A stretch of DNA of 64,000 nucleotides from Haliclystus octoradiatus (taxonomy: Eukaryota; Cnidaria; Staurozoa; Stauromedusae; Haliclystidae): NCBI GenBank assembly GCA_916610825.1, contig OU744449.1:930001-994000 (forward strand). The letters run 5' to 3'. The notes under the pieces are model-generated. The model ran no database searches, was not told the DNA's origin, and saw only the letters and a program-made list of their open reading frames with translations. Position 1 is the stretch's first letter; each line of letters begins with the position of its first letter. Positions 14,701-62,437 of the stretch are shown here, one piece after another. The translations under genes were made by a program, and so were the position numbers.

Positions 14701-17700
14701 AATATGAAACTGGAAATGTAAAATTGCTGTAGTACTGTCCTTTTATTTTGATATCAATAGCAAATTTTCCACTGAACAAATGGCAAATCAAATATCTAAA
14801 ACGTGTTTAGTGTTTGCAACATTGTACCGGTAATTGTCATTAAACTAAAGTCATTTAATAGAAATCAATTTAAATAGCACACACAAATATGAATTTGATA
14901 AGTTCATAATCATTTCATGAAGATTCAAACACGTTTTTGTAGTGATTTGATTCTTCAACCCATACAATAAGTTAATAAACTATTCATGAACCTTGTAAAC
15001 TGCTATAATTGTTAATTGGCATATCTTCTATGAACACATTCTTGAAAACTTCATGAAAAAGTTCATGGAGCACTCATGAACCATGAACAGTTCATAATAG
15101 AAATATATGAACGTTGGATTTCATCAAACCCATCCATGAACCTGTCACAAGATATTCATGAACTGTTTTCATACAGGTAGATATGCTGCTAACTAAATCT
15201 AAAGTTGCAAAGATAAGCTAAATGCATATACACATTATAGCAGAGTTTTATAACTTAAACATTTTGATTCTAAATATTTGTTCTCTATGCCTTGATCTCA
15301 AGCTCACACAAAGCTTGACTGATCTATAAGTCCCGCTTTGATATACCGCAATTTGACGAGCGGTAAGCGGTTTCTTTGTTTTCTAAAACTATAGAATTGC
15401 CTTGATCTCAAGTTTGACAACTGAAAGCATATCTACAAGTAATGAGGTGGATGTTGGCTGATACAATCATTGTAGACACTTAATCTTGTTTGGTGTATTG
15501 GTGCATCAATAATAGCTATAGACACATGGAAACAAATCTCCACTCTGAATATAATCTGGAAAAGGAAAAAAGCTGCAATAGACCAGCGTCCCTTGTGCAA
15601 TTCATGCAAATTCTACCACCTTGTTTTTTTTCAAGTTATGTTTATCTGAAAAATAGCCTTCAAATAATAAAATATTGTTTGAATTGCTTCAATCGAAATC
15701 ATGTGTGTTAAATCTTTTTTGTTTTGTTTGCACATTTTTAGAAACTGAAAGATGATCTTGTAGTTGCATGTGAAGAAATTGAGAAGTTAAAGATCAGACA
15801 GAGAGCAGCAAAGTCAAGAAATGTTGTTTTATCGAATGAATTAAAACAATCACGAAATGAAATCAAACGACTACAGGAAAAGTCAAAAGAGGATGATGAA
15901 TTAGTCAATGCTTCTGTTGTAAGTAGATTATTGAATAGGCTGCTAAATATTAACGTTAGACACACATGTATACAGCGGTAACCTGTCTATAGTGGTCATT
16001 CTTGATATGTGTAACAGTATTTTCTATTGAATAAACCTTGTATATGAAGGTCACCTGTATATAGTGGTCAATTTACCCACGGTCTCTCATATATAGCTGG
16101 CTGCTATATACAGGTTTCCTTGTATATCATATTATTAGGCTTATAGATAATTAGTTGTTGTTTTTTAATGATCTTCAGTAATAATTCACGAACCACAAAC
16201 AATTCATAGGCGCTTCATGAGCATAAATGAACATCCTCTTTGACCGAACAATTAATGGGAACTTTTGTTGACTATTTATGAGGTAGAGTATGCTTATAGT
16301 ATACGGAAATTATATATTCCTTTTCACATTTATGGAGTCATTTTTCTGAGGTATTCCCAGCAAATTGCTACTAGCTCACTTTCAATTAGATTAATACCCT
16401 TTGATAGTGACAGGAATAATTAATTAAGATTTAAATACATTTGTTTGTTTTGTTGGCATCAAGACAAAATTAATTTTATATTATATCATATCTTTTCATT
16501 TATATCATTTAAATAATAATTTTATGTAATAATTTAATTATAGCAATGCCTCCAAATTTAGAAGACCTAGTTTCAAAACGCAAAATACAATTTCCCGTTA
16601 TATATAAACATAAGACAGGGGATGATCCTAGCCAGCAGCCAATATCCTTTGAAATGTGTCTTTTGTTCAGAGCGGGAGTGATCGCTTGAATCAAAGATGA
16701 TTTCCAGATTACAAAACCTTGATATTTACATAAAAGGTTTTCATGAAATACAATTTATGGTGCAAAACTATGCCTTTCGTTGTTAGCGTGAAGTTGAAAG
16801 TTTAAGGGAAGAGAAAATGTCACTGCAGAAGAAGGTATCAAAAAGAAATAAAGACAGCGAAAGAATAGTTTATGCCAACGACATTAGCCCTGATAAGAGA
16901 AACCCTGGTTGTAATCAAATACCTCACCATGGCAACAGTAAGTTGATTGATCAATTAGAAGCAAGAGTCAAGGAACAAGAACACACAGTTAAGAGGCTAG
17001 AAGAAGAATTGAAAAACTCACAACAAGGCAGCAAGATGATAGATTCAAATGAAGATGCACATCACAGGTTTGTAAACTGAATCGACAAAGTCATTATTAT
17101 ATTCTCTATTGTCAACGCGCAATGATGCTCCGCAGCTACTCACAATGCATTCCCTCTGGACCGTTCTATCCGCCATCCTTAGATGGTAGGCTACTCGTTT
17201 GATGTTTTAGATAAAGTCAAGGCTGATGAGTTGACCTTCAGTGGATTTGAACCACAGTCGATCAGATATGATCAGATCTGAAGTTTGTTTGCCCTACCAT
17301 CTGAGCAAATCCTGCTACATCCAGGTTGATCAGTTAACATTGATCAACTATCAACTAATCAACTTGAGTATCAGCACTGTGATTGGTCTACCTGTTACTC
17401 TCAACGAATTGAAATGGAAAGCAGGCTATGTAGCGTATAAAATTTTAGCCTCTTCTGTCATTAAGCCTCTCTATCACGTATACACGTACCATTCCATCCG
17501 CCATCCTTAGATCTGCAATCCACCCCTTGGACCAACCACCCACCATCCTTAGATTCGCAATCCATCCGCCATCCTTAGTTCCGCAATCAACCCCTTGGAC
17601 CATCCACCCACCACGAGGATCTATCAATGGATTTAATTCAACGCTTTTTTGCAATTATGAAATTTTATATCGAGTCAAACGTTGTACCATCGTTTACACA

Positions 17701-20700
17701 AATAGTTCGTTCAAAAGCTGTTAACTGTAGACCCGGTCGTAGACATGCGAATAAGCCTTTTCTTTTTCGTATCTCTTCGATTACACATCCTGTGGTACCC
17801 AATCTTCTATCTGCAATCCGCTTTGCAGAACTTGAATGTGTTTTTGTTTTTCAAGGAAATATTGAATCAGATAGAACACTGTTTAACCACATTGTAATTT
17901 ATTTCAAAATTGATCAATGAACTAATGATGATGAAATAATTGATAATGGTTTTAATGATATAAGAAATATATTTGTATATGTGTAATTGTATGGATATAT
18001 ATATATTGGAAATAATCATAAAATTATAGAAAACTGATCCTCAAATAACAATAAAATAATAAAAAGTCAAAATTAAAATGATTGTGATTTTTCATGAGGA
18101 AGGAATTATATATGTATTGTGCATTTGTTTTAAAATCATACAACATAAAATCATATCAAATTTTCAAATAATCATAAAATTATACAACAGTTGGTTTTCA
18201 AATAATCATAAAATAATAGTAAATAAGTAAATAATAATAAATATATAGTGTTGTTTTAGAAGAAGGCAAAGTCGATCTCGATTTCGTTTGGATCGACTGT
18301 TGGAATAGCCTCCAATTTGCCTTCAGCTTTCTTTTCGATTTGATCATCTTTTTCCTTTCCGTATTCGTCAGATTTCTCTTCGTCCAGCTCTACCAATTGA
18401 ACGTTGCTCATTTTATCATCGTCTTTGGTGAATTCAAACAGATAGATGTCTTGGCTGTCGAGATCAGGGATGTGGAAGATCTCATCATTCACTGCAAAGC
18501 TGACGTTTCTTGCTGGCCGTGGTGTATCACTAAAAAGTGAGAACAAATATCACAATTAACGGCATGTCAAAGCTAAGAAGCTTCACTAAAAGGCTATGCT
18601 ACAGATGTGGGTTGCTGGTTGATGCGCTATAGTTAGTTGTCCGCTATGATTGTCCCCTGAAGATCCTTCAAAGGAATTCAAATATATTTTGGTTCGGGTT
18701 CGTGTTCACCTTTTGAGGCAACCTTTGCTCACATCAACGGCATTGATTTCATCTGGTTCTTCTTCACACTTGCCATCGGATGTGTCTGTTTGAGGGCTAT
18801 TGGAAGATGATGTCACTTTGCAAAGCTGTTTCTTCAATGCTTCAATCTCATTTGTGGCCTCTTTCATAGAGTCCAGGTGGTCTGTGTTGGTTTCATCACG
18901 TTGTTTTTTCAATTGATCGATCTCATGTCTCAGTAGATTGATGTCAGCAAAAGATTTATCGTTGTCGCGGTCTTTGACAATGCTTTGGCTGCACGATTCT
19001 AGCTGAAGCGTCGTAATGAGACTAACCAGTTCGTTGTGGTCTGTTTCATGCTTGGAAGAGAGATTCCTGAGGGTTGCTAGTAACGACTGATTGGCTATCT
19101 TTGTTGCCTCGGCATCGTCTGTTAACTTAGCAATCTTCTCGCGTAGCTCTTTTTCAACACGCTTGTGGCGATTACGTTTCTTCCAAGCTTTTCGAAAGAA
19201 AGCAACAACACGGTGTCTGAATCTCAGCTGACGATGGTTTTGATTAGGCTGTGATGGTAAAATCTCAGATGCGGAACCTCCTTTCAGAGCATCTGAAACA
19301 TCATTGTTGTTTTCATCACGAGGCCCTTCAGCATAACTCATTGGTCCAGTAATTGCACTAAGATCTAAAGATTCGATGGTGCTAGCATTGGCTGCTTTGG
19401 TCTCTCTTTTCTTTAATCTTTTGTACGTCTCTGTCAGCAAATCTTGCCTTGCCATAATGCTGGCAAATTTGTTCTTGTAGAACGCAGCGTATTCATTGAC
19501 ATTTTCCACTTCAGATAGCACAGCTGTACGATGTCTAATTGCTAGTGCTATTTCTCTATTGATCTCAATGATGCTATCTGTGATGCCATTCAGATCGATT
19601 CCATTTGATTGATTGGATGATCTCAGTATAGTGGCGAGTTTTATTTGTTTCTCTGTCACGTGATCAAATGTATCAAGCATTTCCTGTTCGTGATATTTTG
19701 ATTGTGGCGTTGAATCCTCCATGGTCAATCCAGAGGTCTTCTGAGTTGCTGTAGCAATCATGCGGCCTAAATTGAAGTGATAAAAAGATGGATCAAATAC
19801 AGTGACAACCTGAGTATAGCAATCACCAATGAAAATTAAATCTGACCGTTGTAGACAGGATTGTTAAACAGTGTGTTAAACAATGTGGTTAAACAGTGTT
19901 CTATCTGATTCAATATTTCCTTGAAAAACAAAAACACATTCAAGTTCTGCAAAGTGGATTGCAGATAGAAGATTGGGTACCACAGGATGTGTAATCGAAG
20001 AGACACGAAAAAGAAAAGGCTTATTTGCATGTCTACGACCGGGTCTACAGTTAACACACTTAATATTTCTAAAGAAAGTTCGATAATGGCTAGATAGTAC
20101 TGCCTGTCTTTTCTAAATACTGTGAAAGTGGTTACTGTAGCCATGTGGGATATGACCCTAACGAGTGCATCCCTCTTATTTTTGGTTCTAATAATTAACA
20201 AACTCATCGCTTATATTTTGATCCTGTGTATCAAACTCGCAAGAAATAACTTATGTAACGCTATTATATAAGTTGTGATTGATAACCTTCACACAGATCT
20301 TTGCAGCAAATATCGTAGCTTATAACCGTTACAGTACTCACCATCTCCATCATCTAATGCTGCAGTGCTGGCTTCAACGTCTTCACTGTGGTTATTATTT
20401 ACTAATAATTCTTCAGCGTCTCCATTAACTTTTTCGTCTAACGCATCCTTTTGCGGTTTTTCCCCGCTATCATCTTTTTCTGTGATATCTTCATTACCTT
20501 CGACGTCTTCGTTCGACGCCACACTATTCGAAGCGTTCTCTCCTTCACCTCCTTCTGCTACAGTTTCAGCTGCAGCTTCGTTTTCGTCAACTTTTTCCAT
20601 CTCGGAATTACAAGTGTCCATTCTTGTCATCGGTCAAAATGGCAAGAGGAAGATCGAGGCAATGCAATCGTTTTTATACATTCGCAATCATGACGTAATG

Positions 20701-23256
20701 GTTTGATTGATTTTTACCTTATTTGGATATATCCATAGATACTTTACTGTAATCAGACGTCATGATTCGACTAATCAGAAAAAATTCGGTAAGAAAATCC
20801 ATAATGGTAGATATTTCTCATAAATATGCATTTTTGAAAAAGTGAATATTCAAGTCTTTAAATTAACTTTTAAATCAAAAGTAGAGTTCACTCTTCATCC
20901 AAACCATGTTTCAAGTACCCGCCCACATACGTTCGAAAATAGAGCTCAGTATTTATTTGTCGAATGTTTACCGGAATGTTTCGCTTCTTCACTTTTCAAA
21001 CTTTTTCTACAGATCAGTTACTGATCGAAGGCAAGTTGAAATGTTGAATATCGGCTGATAGTAACCGAGGTTGACCGATGTCGTTATACCGATATTCATG
21101 GAGCCTTAGATCAGTAACTGTTTTAGTCAATGACTAGCTGGTCAATTTTGTTATATAAAGTCATAGCATCAAAAACGCAATTAACCATACCAAATTAGCC
21201 ATAGTGGTGAGAACACACGATGCCGTCAATACCACTGGTCAAAACAGCTTTAGAATTGACCACTGTTCGACCAATCAAATTTCTCGATTCTCTTATCAAC
21301 CTGTTAGGCAATAACTAATTATTGTGAATTAATTTTCATCTTTTAAACGAAATGTATCCATTATACGCATGCCCGTATGAGATGGAAAAGAAAAAGGAAA
21401 TTTGGATAATTGGAGATTGTATAATAGTTAAGGTTTATAATATTTTGTCTCTTCAAGTTTTACACCAGAAGGTGATCATCAAGCGGTTAATTCAACTAGC
21501 GTAATTCTAGCATGTTTCATTTTTGACTCTCTTTCTATAAATACTCTAATTAATTTCATTGATCACCACACCAAAAACTGGTGTGGGACAATCCCACTGT
21601 TACAGTTGTATCAGATAATTGAAACAAATTGCTCATAATAGAATTTAGATCACATCAAAGATTCATTGAAATCTTTCACATTTTCTCTCGCCCGATGCCA
21701 TGCCAATCAGAGCTGTAATAACTACTTTAAATTTTAATTGCAGAAATATTGAGGACAAGTCATACGAATGGCAAAAATTATCGTCATTACTTGAAGTAGC
21801 TTCAGTTGAACGAGAAAGACTGTTGGAGTTAACGCAACGTCAACAATTAAGGTCAGTTGCGAGTTGTTGAGCATTTGTTTTCGTACACATTGTGTTCATT
21901 AAATTTGTATTAAACTGCCGATGGATGTGTCCGTGTTAAGTTTAGAGGTATAGCATTCGATTTCTATTGATAAATAATTTTACCCAAAAACTAGCAGCAA
22001 ACAAATTTGGTTCTTCATCTGATCATAGTTTATAGAGACAAACCCGTGATCAGACAAATCTTTTTATTTATATCTAATATGGGTCTCTATAAACTATGAT
22101 CTGAAGCAATTTTCAAGCTAAGATCAAGATGATCTGATTTATAAGTGACACAGTAATTAATAGATTACAACCATCAGTTGGGGATGATATTTACCATTTC
22201 GTGATAATGTTTTTGATTTATTGAGTCCCAATTCTCGTCAATTCTATATTCATAATGATTTAAAAGACTAAACCAGCAAATCTAGACCATGAGAAATACG
22301 CGAATAAATTACGTACATTTTTTTTCAAAAGCATCGAAAACTCTATCCGCCAACACTTGGAATTGGAAACAAAATGCTGTGGATTAAACCGTCGGAACGC
22401 TACCCTAGAAAAGGGGATCGAATTAGCAAAGAAAAATAGCAGACAGCAACAACCACCAAAGCAGCTGAATCGATCACGTGGTCAATCTCGATCAGCTAAC
22501 GTAGTACGTCAAAATGAGACTGAAAATGATGATAAGAGTGAAGCTGAAACGAGGTTAGTGGAATTGACATAGCCACATGGTTCAGTCTCCATTTAATTGC
22601 TTATTTGCAAAGGTTAATGATGTATTGACAATCATCATATCTAAGATTCTAATGTAGTAATTGTTTTTCAATAACTCTCTCTACCATCTTTCCTTGGTTA
22701 ATTAATTGCCTCAACAGAATAATATACTCTGTTCTGCTGCTTCTCAGTTTATTGGACGGAATGCGCAAGGTCCGACAAAAGTAGGAACCCTGGAATCCTA
22801 GATTCAGGGAGGTTATCGAGCGAATTCAGAAGAAAGTTAATATTTTTAAGATTTATTGGTCAAACAGCAACTAAAATATTCAGAAGAAATGTCAGACACT
22901 AGGATTCCAAAAGACTGAATCTTTTGTCGGACACTACGCATGCATCATTTGTTCAACTCTGGTGTCAGCAATTAGCATCGTATCATATAATTTAATGGAC
23001 GTATTGGTTTGTTATTTGCAGACTCTTGATACAAATGGACGAGAACAACGCTCTAAAAGAAGCATTAAACTCAACATTAAAATCAAAACAAGAAGACATA
23101 AAAGTTTATGAGAACATTCTAGATCAATCTAAAAAGATATTTATGGAAGGACTAAGACAACTAACACAAGACATTACATTATCAAATGAAAACAACATAC
23201 AAAATAATTTAAAACAACGACCCCGTTCATCAATACCTTATTTAAATGACAGCTGA
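8741..23256 (+). CDS. CCDC13: CCDC13 coiled-coil protein, 13 exons, 697 aa
   Basis: In vertebrates CCDC13 is a centriolar-satellite/basal-body protein needed for cilium assembly. Exons: 8741-8971, 9414-9476, 10143-10248, 12261-12418, 12507-12563, 13038-13151, 13493-13597, 14438-14674, 15742-15918, 16787-17067, 21744-21851, 22332-22553, 23022-23256; total 2094 nt. Diagnostic blocks run in family order: DENGRLYKLL (about residues 102-111), AAAKIISMSKKIR, VLSNEIGDGISIQSLM followed by SWRGRQQQIINLQNK, SRNVVLSNELKQSRNEIKRL, VERERLLELTQRQ and the C-terminal ENNALKEALNSTLKSKQEDI..MEGLRQ. Nearly the whole chain is heptad-like coiled coil, and the length is close to the human protein (about 715 aa). 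ATG at 8741 is chosen because MSNGSST..LKAQFDALQKRQ aligns with the family start. AATAAA at 23296-23301 is a good poly(A) signal. Intron 10 contains a nested antisense gene. Confidence 0.95.
10353..11350. mobile_element. 998-bp non-autonomous TIR DNA transposon
   Basis: Inserted in CCDC13 intron 3. The outer 30 bp of both ends form an inverted repeat with one mismatch, starting CACAGATTATAACGACCAG and ending CGGCACTG on the left. The insertion is flanked by an exact 9-bp direct repeat ATCAAGGGA (10344-10352 and 11351-11359). Sub-terminal similarity (GCCATTATGTxTGTTGCCC) continues inward. No transposase frame is visible. A 9-bp target duplication is typical of Mutator-like elements and also occurs in some Merlin elements; the family assignment is inference. 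A truncated inverted relative lies at 38922-39737. Confidence 0.88.
11465..11875. repeat. 60-bp minisatellite with GTTCATGAAC motifs
   Basis: Five units of about 60 bp are marked by CCCAA at 11582, 11642, 11702, 11762 and 11823, with a further related CCCAA at 11476. Each unit carries TTCATGAAC-type dyads and CATTAAACAGT. The period is a multiple of three, so the minus strand stays open across it (11531-11827). I read that frame as a by-product of the repeat, not a gene. Confidence 0.85.
13786..13890. repeat. Dispersed repeat, copy A
   Basis: Contains GGACCATTCCATCTGCCATC followed by TACTCATTTGACGTTTT. A related stretch at 17115-17210 has GGACCGTTCTATCCGCCATC followed by TACTCGTTTGATGTTTT. 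Both lie in CCDC13 introns. No borders or coding potential are seen. Confidence 0.5.
13951..14124. mobile_element. MITE of the CTATAGCGGTCA family, reversed
   Basis: A copy of the 4034-4215 family in opposite orientation within a CCDC13 intron. It runs from a GAAACCTGTTTATAA end to an ACAGGTCTGACTGTA end. Confidence 0.55.
14890..15175. repeat. TTCATGAA-rich degenerate repeat tract
   Basis: An intronic stretch of CCDC13 with many TTCATGAA, GTTCATGGA and CATGAACAGTTC motifs. It is a diverged relative of the minisatellite at 11465-11875 without clear periodicity. Confidence 0.5.
15969..16125. mobile_element. MITE of the CTATAGCGGTCA family
   Basis: A copy in a CCDC13 intron with the motif CCTGTCTATAGTGGTCATTC and an ending like TACAGGTTTCCTTGTAT. 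It aligns by eye with the element at 4034-4215. Confidence 0.55.
17115..17210. repeat. Dispersed repeat, copy B
   Basis: Partner of the sequence at 13786-13890, with the shared core TCCGCCATCCTTA. It lies at the start of CCDC13 intron 10, next to a tandem repeat built on the same CCATCCTTAG core. Confidence 0.5.
17429..17483. repeat. Dispersed repeat TGTAGCGTATAA, copy 1
   Basis: About 55 bp starting TGTAGCGTATAAAATTTTAG recurs with a few changes at 26571-26625 in an intron of the THSD7-like gene. Too short to classify. Confidence 0.6.
17494..17617. repeat. 68-bp tandem repeat, about two units
   Basis: The unit begins CCATCCGCCATCCTTAG (17494 and 17562) and includes CCCCTTGGACCA and CACCCACCA. 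The second unit is shorter. Open frames over it on both strands are repeat artefacts. Confidence 0.75.
17720..17895 (+). repeat. 176-bp inverted-repeat arm 1 beside nested gene
   Basis: This arm is the reverse complement of 19880-20055 with only about three substitutions in 176 positions. It begins GTTAACTGTAGACCCGGTCG and ends CTGTTTAACCACATTGT. It lies 3' of the nested minus-strand gene. The equal arm lengths and high identity imply a recent inverted duplication or ongoing gene conversion between arms. Confidence 0.92.
18256..20630 (-). CDS. Unrecognised coiled-coil protein nested in CCDC13 intron, 3 exons, 539 aa
   Basis: Exons in transcript order: 20630-20342, 19766-18710, 18529-18256; total 1620 nt with clean GT..AG junctions. 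I do not recognise the family. Residues 1-97 are very acidic and low-complexity (Glu/Asp/Ala/Asn, for example NEAAAETVAEGGEGENAS). The middle exon (352 codons) is mostly heptad-like coiled coil with a strongly basic patch (FRKAWKKRNRHKR) near its centre. The last 92 residues hold a more ordered-looking stretch (NVSFAVNDEIFHIPDL, then DIYLFEFTKDDDKM) and end in an acidic tail (EIEIDFAFF). There is no signal peptide or membrane helix. The start at 20630 is the first ATG; another ATG follows three codons later. A minus-strand AATAAA lies at 17903-17898. It runs opposite to its host gene. It could be a lineage-specific coiled-coil gene or a fast-diverged known one. Confidence 0.72.
19880..20055 (-). 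repeat. 176-bp inverted-repeat arm 2 in nested-gene intron 1
   Basis: Inverted partner of 17720-17895. It lies in the first intron of the nested gene, so the two arms bracket coding exons 2 and 3 (about 2.0 kb between arms). No transposase or terminal target duplication was recognised at the arm borders. Confidence 0.92.
21512..21605. repeat. Dispersed repeat ATTAATTTCATTGA, copy 1
   Basis: Contains TTTCATTTTTGACTCTCTTT, TAATTAATTTCATTGATCAC and AAAACTGGTGTGGGACAATC. The same order occurs at 33838-33972 and, reversed, at 49088-49180. Confidence 0.6.
22021..22101. repeat. Perfect 19-bp inverted repeat
   Basis: GATCATAGTTTATAGAGAC (22021-22039) and its exact complement (22083-22101) enclose a 43-base loop in a CCDC13 intron. 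It could be a MITE remnant or a transcript hairpin. Confidence 0.8.
22770..22932. mobile_element. 163-bp MITE with 12-bp TIR
   Basis: The ends GTCCGACAAAAG and CTTTTGTCGGAC are exact complements, and the inner segments (GGAATCCTAG / CTAGGATTCC) are also complementary. Related sequences at 37294-37460, 41812-41880 and 47738-47893 share AGTAGGAATCC-like ends, ATTTATAGGTCAA and AGAAATT/AATTTCTTCT-type interiors. It lies in the last CCDC13 intron. Confidence 0.7.

Positions 23257-40530: not shown

Positions 40531-62437
<21,907 letters not shown>

Follow-up and report, generated by a model that had tools for sequence, protein, structure and literature searches.

The stretch of Haliclystus octoradiatus DNA analyzed here (64,000 nt; hereafter the window) corresponds to C5:930001-994000 on chromosome 5 and contains a three-exon gene on the minus strand. 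Exon 1 (20342..20630) begins with the ATG at 20630 and comprises 289 nt, equivalent to 96 whole codons plus one base, followed by a GT donor at 20341-20340. Exon 2 (18710..19766, minus strand), bounded by an AG acceptor and a GT donor, encodes a coiled-coil-like middle portion with a basic patch, and exon 3 (18256..18529, minus strand) ends with the stop codon at 18258-18256. Among the 81 junction combinations tried around 20342/19766 and 18710/18529, only this one provided GT-AG at both introns. The spliced minus-strand product of 20630-20342, 19766-18710, and 18529-18256 is a protein of 539 aa, and the gene structure proposed by the first-pass annotation stands. The acidic N-terminus is encoded by exon 1, the least conserved part of the gene, while exon 3 is the most conserved part. 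Downstream of the stop codon, an AATAAA motif on the minus strand (17898..17903) adjoins the left arm of the inverted repeat described below and is a candidate poly(A) signal as judged by the motif; a further ATTAAA is present at 17951-17956. The gene lies antisense to a host gene that we take to be CCDC13 from the look of the neighboring frames at 16787-17080 and 21670-21870. No literature pairing CCDC13 with a nested gene was found, and the region spanning 16500-21500 yielded no match to RNA families at E<=1. A plus-strand open frame of 113 aa (stop to stop; 17579-17920) covers part of the left flank and crosses the left arm, but bears no sign of being a gene.

The genome (261,861,806 bases in 33 contigs) was searched with the 2911-bp stretch covering the gene and with the protein as queries, all 4 and all 13 candidates being scored, respectively. 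At least three relatives were detected, all of which reside on chromosome 5 and, among the matches listed, on the minus strand like the window gene. Two of the relatives constitute a tandem pair (C5:1032242-1034906 and C5:1036533-1039245) at distances of 81 and 86 kb to the window copy, with DNA identities to the latter of 94.7-96.4% in the BLAST pieces and 94-95% in exon 1. The third, an older copy, was recognized by exons 2-3 at C5:1933557-1935570, 0.98 Mb away, and an additional short match lies at C5:1936295-1936386. Both members of the tandem pair retain intact 539-aa frames and the splice sites of the window gene, and the older copy has an open frame over 433 codons in exons 2-3. Two intact relatives of 539 aa and a third that has diverged support the coding status of the window gene, which is a member of a coding gene family in this genome. 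The order and orientation of exons 2-3 are alike in all four copies found. The homology between the window and the tandem pair extends over 17900-19859 and 20060-20811, delimiting a duplicated block (17900..20811, minus strand) that runs from the promoter side to the 3' flank and is broken by an insertion in intron 1. The block takes in exon 1 and the promoter side, not exons 2-3 alone. The window gene has the appearance of a young, intact duplicate belonging to a small family of genes on the same chromosome. Elsewhere in the window, a 457-nt stretch (57238-57692) showed 86% identity to C5:1922440-1922896 in inverse orientation and is possibly a repeat.

Across the 431 shared codons of exons 2-3, dN/dS was 0.29 between the window gene and each member of the tandem pair, and 0.28 between the window gene and the older copy. 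For the shared part of exon 2, the value was 0.28-0.36 relative to the pair and 0.31 relative to the older copy, and the corresponding values for exon 3 were 0.11 and 0.30 (the pair) and 0.13 (the older copy). Exon 1 was near neutral in comparison with the pair (dN of 0.049-0.059, dS of 0.073-0.074, dN/dS of about 0.67-0.80). When the changed codons were counted on individual branches, the window branch bore 26 nonsynonymous and 13 synonymous ones, with a ratio of 0.52 that was not significant (p=0.069), and the two branches of the pair bore 8 and 4 (p of 0.29) and 5 and 5 (p of 0.037), respectively. Purifying constraint on the gene family is clear from these codon comparisons, and constraint on the window copy taken alone is only suggested.

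The 539-aa protein had been regarded as matching no known family, and this held in both of the databases searched. Pfam returned five weak matches at E<=1 (the best with an E-value of 0.015), none of them above the cut-off, and no match was found among the PDB sequences at E<=1. We took the Pfam matches, all of which were below the cut-off, as those expected by chance for a coiled coil and rejected them as a family assignment. A single-sequence structural model of exon 2 was mostly helical with low confidence (mean pLDDT of 60.2, pTM of 0.23), and the protein is likely a coiled-coil scaffold, as far as its predicted features indicate.

The protein sequence across the junction between exons 2 and 3 is GCLKSDTPRPARNVSF, in which GCLK at residue 445 (the end of exon 2) is followed after 7 residues by RNVSF at residue 456 (exon 3). 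RNVSF was kept in 4 of the 4 copies aligned for the motif scan, and a second RVxF-type match, RVVAF, is found at residue 282. The canonical form of the SILK motif is [GS]IL[KR], to which GCLK does not conform, and no canonical SILK motif is present in the protein. An RVxF match alone appeared in 30% of 20,000 shuffled sequences and is weak by itself; a relaxed motif pair of the GCLK-RNVSF type, a pattern chosen post hoc, appeared in 0.2% of 20,000 shuffles. RNVSF fits the RVxF consensus for protein phosphatase 1 (PP1) docking, [K/R]x(0-1)[V/I]x[F/W] (PMC6406801). Inhibitor-3 contains a non-canonical binder of the SILK pocket, whose contribution to affinity is small (PMC10066265). The window protein resembles the PP1 interactors with both SILK and RVxF, such as KNL1 and inhibitor-2, in that GCLK and, 7 residues on, RNVSF lie in its most conserved part. 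It differs from KNL1 and inhibitor-2 in that GCLK is a non-canonical SILK and in that the protein matches no sequence family. The conserved C-terminus may dock PP1, which we offer as a lead only, and the unnamed family with its almost invariant C-terminal stretch may represent a new PP1-docking protein.

The gene is accompanied by a near-identical inverted repeat, which proved to be real, albeit with arms of 177 nt rather than the 176 initially reported. The left arm occupies 17719-17895 and the right arm, residing within intron 1, occupies 19880-20056, with a spacer of 1984 nt in between. The two arms are identical at 174 of 177 positions (98% complementary), the three mismatches being 17749/20026, 17771/20004, and 17820/19955, and the pairing is far beyond chance. 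As the first-pass annotation stated, and as the coordinates confirm, exons 2-3 are placed between the arms and exon 1 beyond them. The arm was found at two places only. No third site was found in the 262-Mb genome by a DNA search with a 227-nt stretch, which passes over very common words so that its copy counts are lower bounds, or with a 22-mer at up to 3 mismatches.

Inverted pairs of this kind are not exceptional locally. Chromosome 5 was sampled over 179,901 letters (including the 64,000 of the window, with one base counted twice at the junction of two stretches). In this sample, which is local and small rather than random, four inverted pairs satisfied the cut-offs (arms of >=60 nt, identity of >=85%, gap of <=5 kb), one of which was the arm pair of the window. 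Among the other three, one pair had arms of 372 nt with 91.7% identity, another had identical arms of 91 nt (100%) separated by 2.2 kb, and the last had arms of 65 nt with 87.7% identity. In the same letters, nine near-palindromes (>=60 nt, >=80%) were detected. Of these pairs, that of 91 nt lies at C5:1063393-1063483 and C5:1065702-1065792, and that of about 372 nt, which has a gap of 404 nt, at C5:1065848-1066990.

No arm was found in any of the three relatives. Where both members of the tandem pair have 6-7 nt, the window possesses an insertion of ~200 nt (about 19860-20059), the bulk of which is the right arm. At one end of the insertion, overlapping the end of the arm, about three copies of the 12-nt unit TGTTAAACAGTG are arrayed (19862..19899), and this repeat looks like a product of polymerase slippage. 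The intron arm carries the extra 12-mer units and the left arm does not. The left arm in turn abuts the edge of the duplicated block: it ends at 17895, and the BLAST match to the tandem pair starts at 17900, leaving 4 nt between them, and that to the older copy starts at 17895 itself. Beyond this left edge, each member of the pair showed weak homology to the older copy with a p value of about 0.01, although the two values are not independent because the pair members are near-identical there, whereas the window showed none (p of 0.60 against the older copy and 0.86-0.89 against the pair). As homology beyond the edge was seen in the pair but not in the window, the results weakly suggest that the window copy was cut short at its left edge.

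The divergence between the arms (3/177, 1.7%) was compared with that at noncoding sites between the window and the members of the pair (25/997 and 36/1044, counts that leave out gap columns and 19836-20070), and the two were indistinguishable (Fisher's p of 0.79 and 0.35). It is thus possible that the gene copy and the arms arose in a single episode. We had initially considered, based on dS, that the arms were clearly younger than the gene duplication, but this idea was dropped as the difference from noncoding sites was not significant.

Taking the above results together, we consider it probable that the window gene is a young duplicate nested in an intron of its host, and that the inverted arms stem from local inverted copying in the course of template-switching repair. 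A gene family encoding a coiled-coil protein would have spread along one chromosome through DNA duplication, and the young copy in the window would have come to lie antisense in the intron of the host gene, the window copy presumably being the inserted one. A stretch of 177 nt would have been copied in inverse orientation from one to the other of two places, the duplicated block's edge and intron 1, the likeliest route being break repair that involved microhomology-mediated template switching or a templated insertion. The inverted copying perhaps took place in the same episode as the placing or reshaping of the gene copy, or somewhat later. As for a nearby template of the same sequence, the arms are 98% identical and 2 kb apart. 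Short shared words were seen at the junctions in alignments read by eye, in sequence that is AT-rich, and these words and the 12-mer repeat at the end of the insertion fit template switching. The direction of copying may be considered either way. With the left flank as the source, copying would by coincidence have ended where the gene block does; with the intron as the source, it would by coincidence have ended within about 3 nt of the other end of the insertion (20056 versus 20059). GC contents were compared with regard to a host-native origin of the arm: the arm had 0.38, the left flank 0.44, and the 3' flank of the gene 0.18. The first-pass annotation had also entertained the arms as a scar left when the exons were placed here. 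This proposal comes close to the favored reading, in that the duplicate is dispersed and only 4 nt separate the left arm from the block edge, but the block that was placed includes exon 1 and the promoter side as well. The flank of the young gene copy, in which the left arm comes so near to that edge, preserves a record of its rearrangement.

The locus can be set beside three known systems. Like tandem or dispersed segmental duplicates, the copies are near-identical whole genes with introns on one chromosome and their frames have been kept open; unlike them, one copy sits in the intron of a presumed host gene and has an additional inverted repeat. At 177 nt, the arm is long for a polymerase-theta product. 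In other respects, the arm resembles the templated insertions made by microhomology-mediated break-induced replication (MMBIR) or polymerase-theta end joining: a short nearby sequence is copied (here inverted), a slippage-like repeat is present, and the junctions show, on inspection by eye, possible short homologies. MMBIR has been described as a source of templated insertions (PMC8421209). The segment flanked by inverted repeats also recalls microinversions, but those in PMC8755829 are 17-33 nt and truly inverted, whereas no inversion was seen at the window locus.

Two other origins of the arms need to be considered. Each arm could be a copy of a transposable element of low copy number (e.g., a short non-autonomous DNA element), the two having inserted independently, in intron 1 and beside the gene, in opposite orientations. 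Compared with both tandem relatives, the intron arm is indeed cleanly inserted, and mobile DNA is close by in the form of a high-copy repeat at about 17105-17317. On the other hand, only two copies of the arm were found in 262 Mb (a lower bound), no target-site duplication was seen at either place in the alignments inspected by eye, and independent insertion leaves unexplained why the left arm and the block edge are only 4 nt apart. Since the arm was found at two places only, a high-copy transposon is unlikely, and we regard the transposable element in general as an improbable source, though the most plausible one after local inverted copying. Long-read artefacts include inverted duplications, and the inverted copy could in principle have arisen in sequencing or assembly. 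However, the arms, 2 kb apart, differ at three sites, and the extra 12-mer units are present in the intron copy and not in the left arm, which makes an assembly artefact very hard to credit.

Besides their origin, a function may be sought in the arms. The first-pass annotation envisaged a polymorphic or programmed switch, in which exons 2-3 would be inverted by recombination between the arms and the gene thereby switched off or restored. The geometry permits such a switch, as the arms are 98% identical and surround exons 2-3 only. Nevertheless, the assembly shows the exons in coding orientation, the order and strand of exons 2-3 are shared by the four copies found, and the three relatives had no detectable arm. 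Moreover, an arm of 177 nt is short for homologous recombination, and the papers listed by a literature search made no mention of programmed inversion, which is weak evidence. We thus set the switch aside as exceedingly improbable and suppose that no switching takes place. Just as little credence is given to the extended version, in which the arms, made together with the duplication, would have created an invertible module of exons 2-3 and an on/off polymorphism of a possibly lineage-restricted and possibly PP1-docking protein. Such a switch, if true, would make the locus matter much more, but nothing found supports one.

A role at the RNA level is also quite improbable, although less so than the switch. 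The sense pre-mRNA of the host would contain both arms, which lie in one host intron if the assignment of the host is right, and these could fold into a 177-bp hairpin with a 2-kb loop and bring about editing or a splicing change near the nested gene. In the transcript of the nested gene, by contrast, most of the left arm would fall outside, past the candidate AATAAA signal at 17903-17898, if that signal is used. The right arm is intronic and the mRNA of the nested gene should therefore not be altered.

Some further features surround the left arm. No other copy of the left flank (17484-17718) was found in the genome. The stretch 17105-17317 is a high-copy dispersed repeat, for which most of the best 40 of 3332 candidates showed about 86-88% identity, and a related copy at C5:1052724-1053118 extends to 17483. 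A short array of related units (CCATCCGCCATCCTTAGAT...) spaced 26 to 42 nt apart occupies 17488-17613, and a weak echo of this array, estimated to be near chance level, is seen within the left arm.
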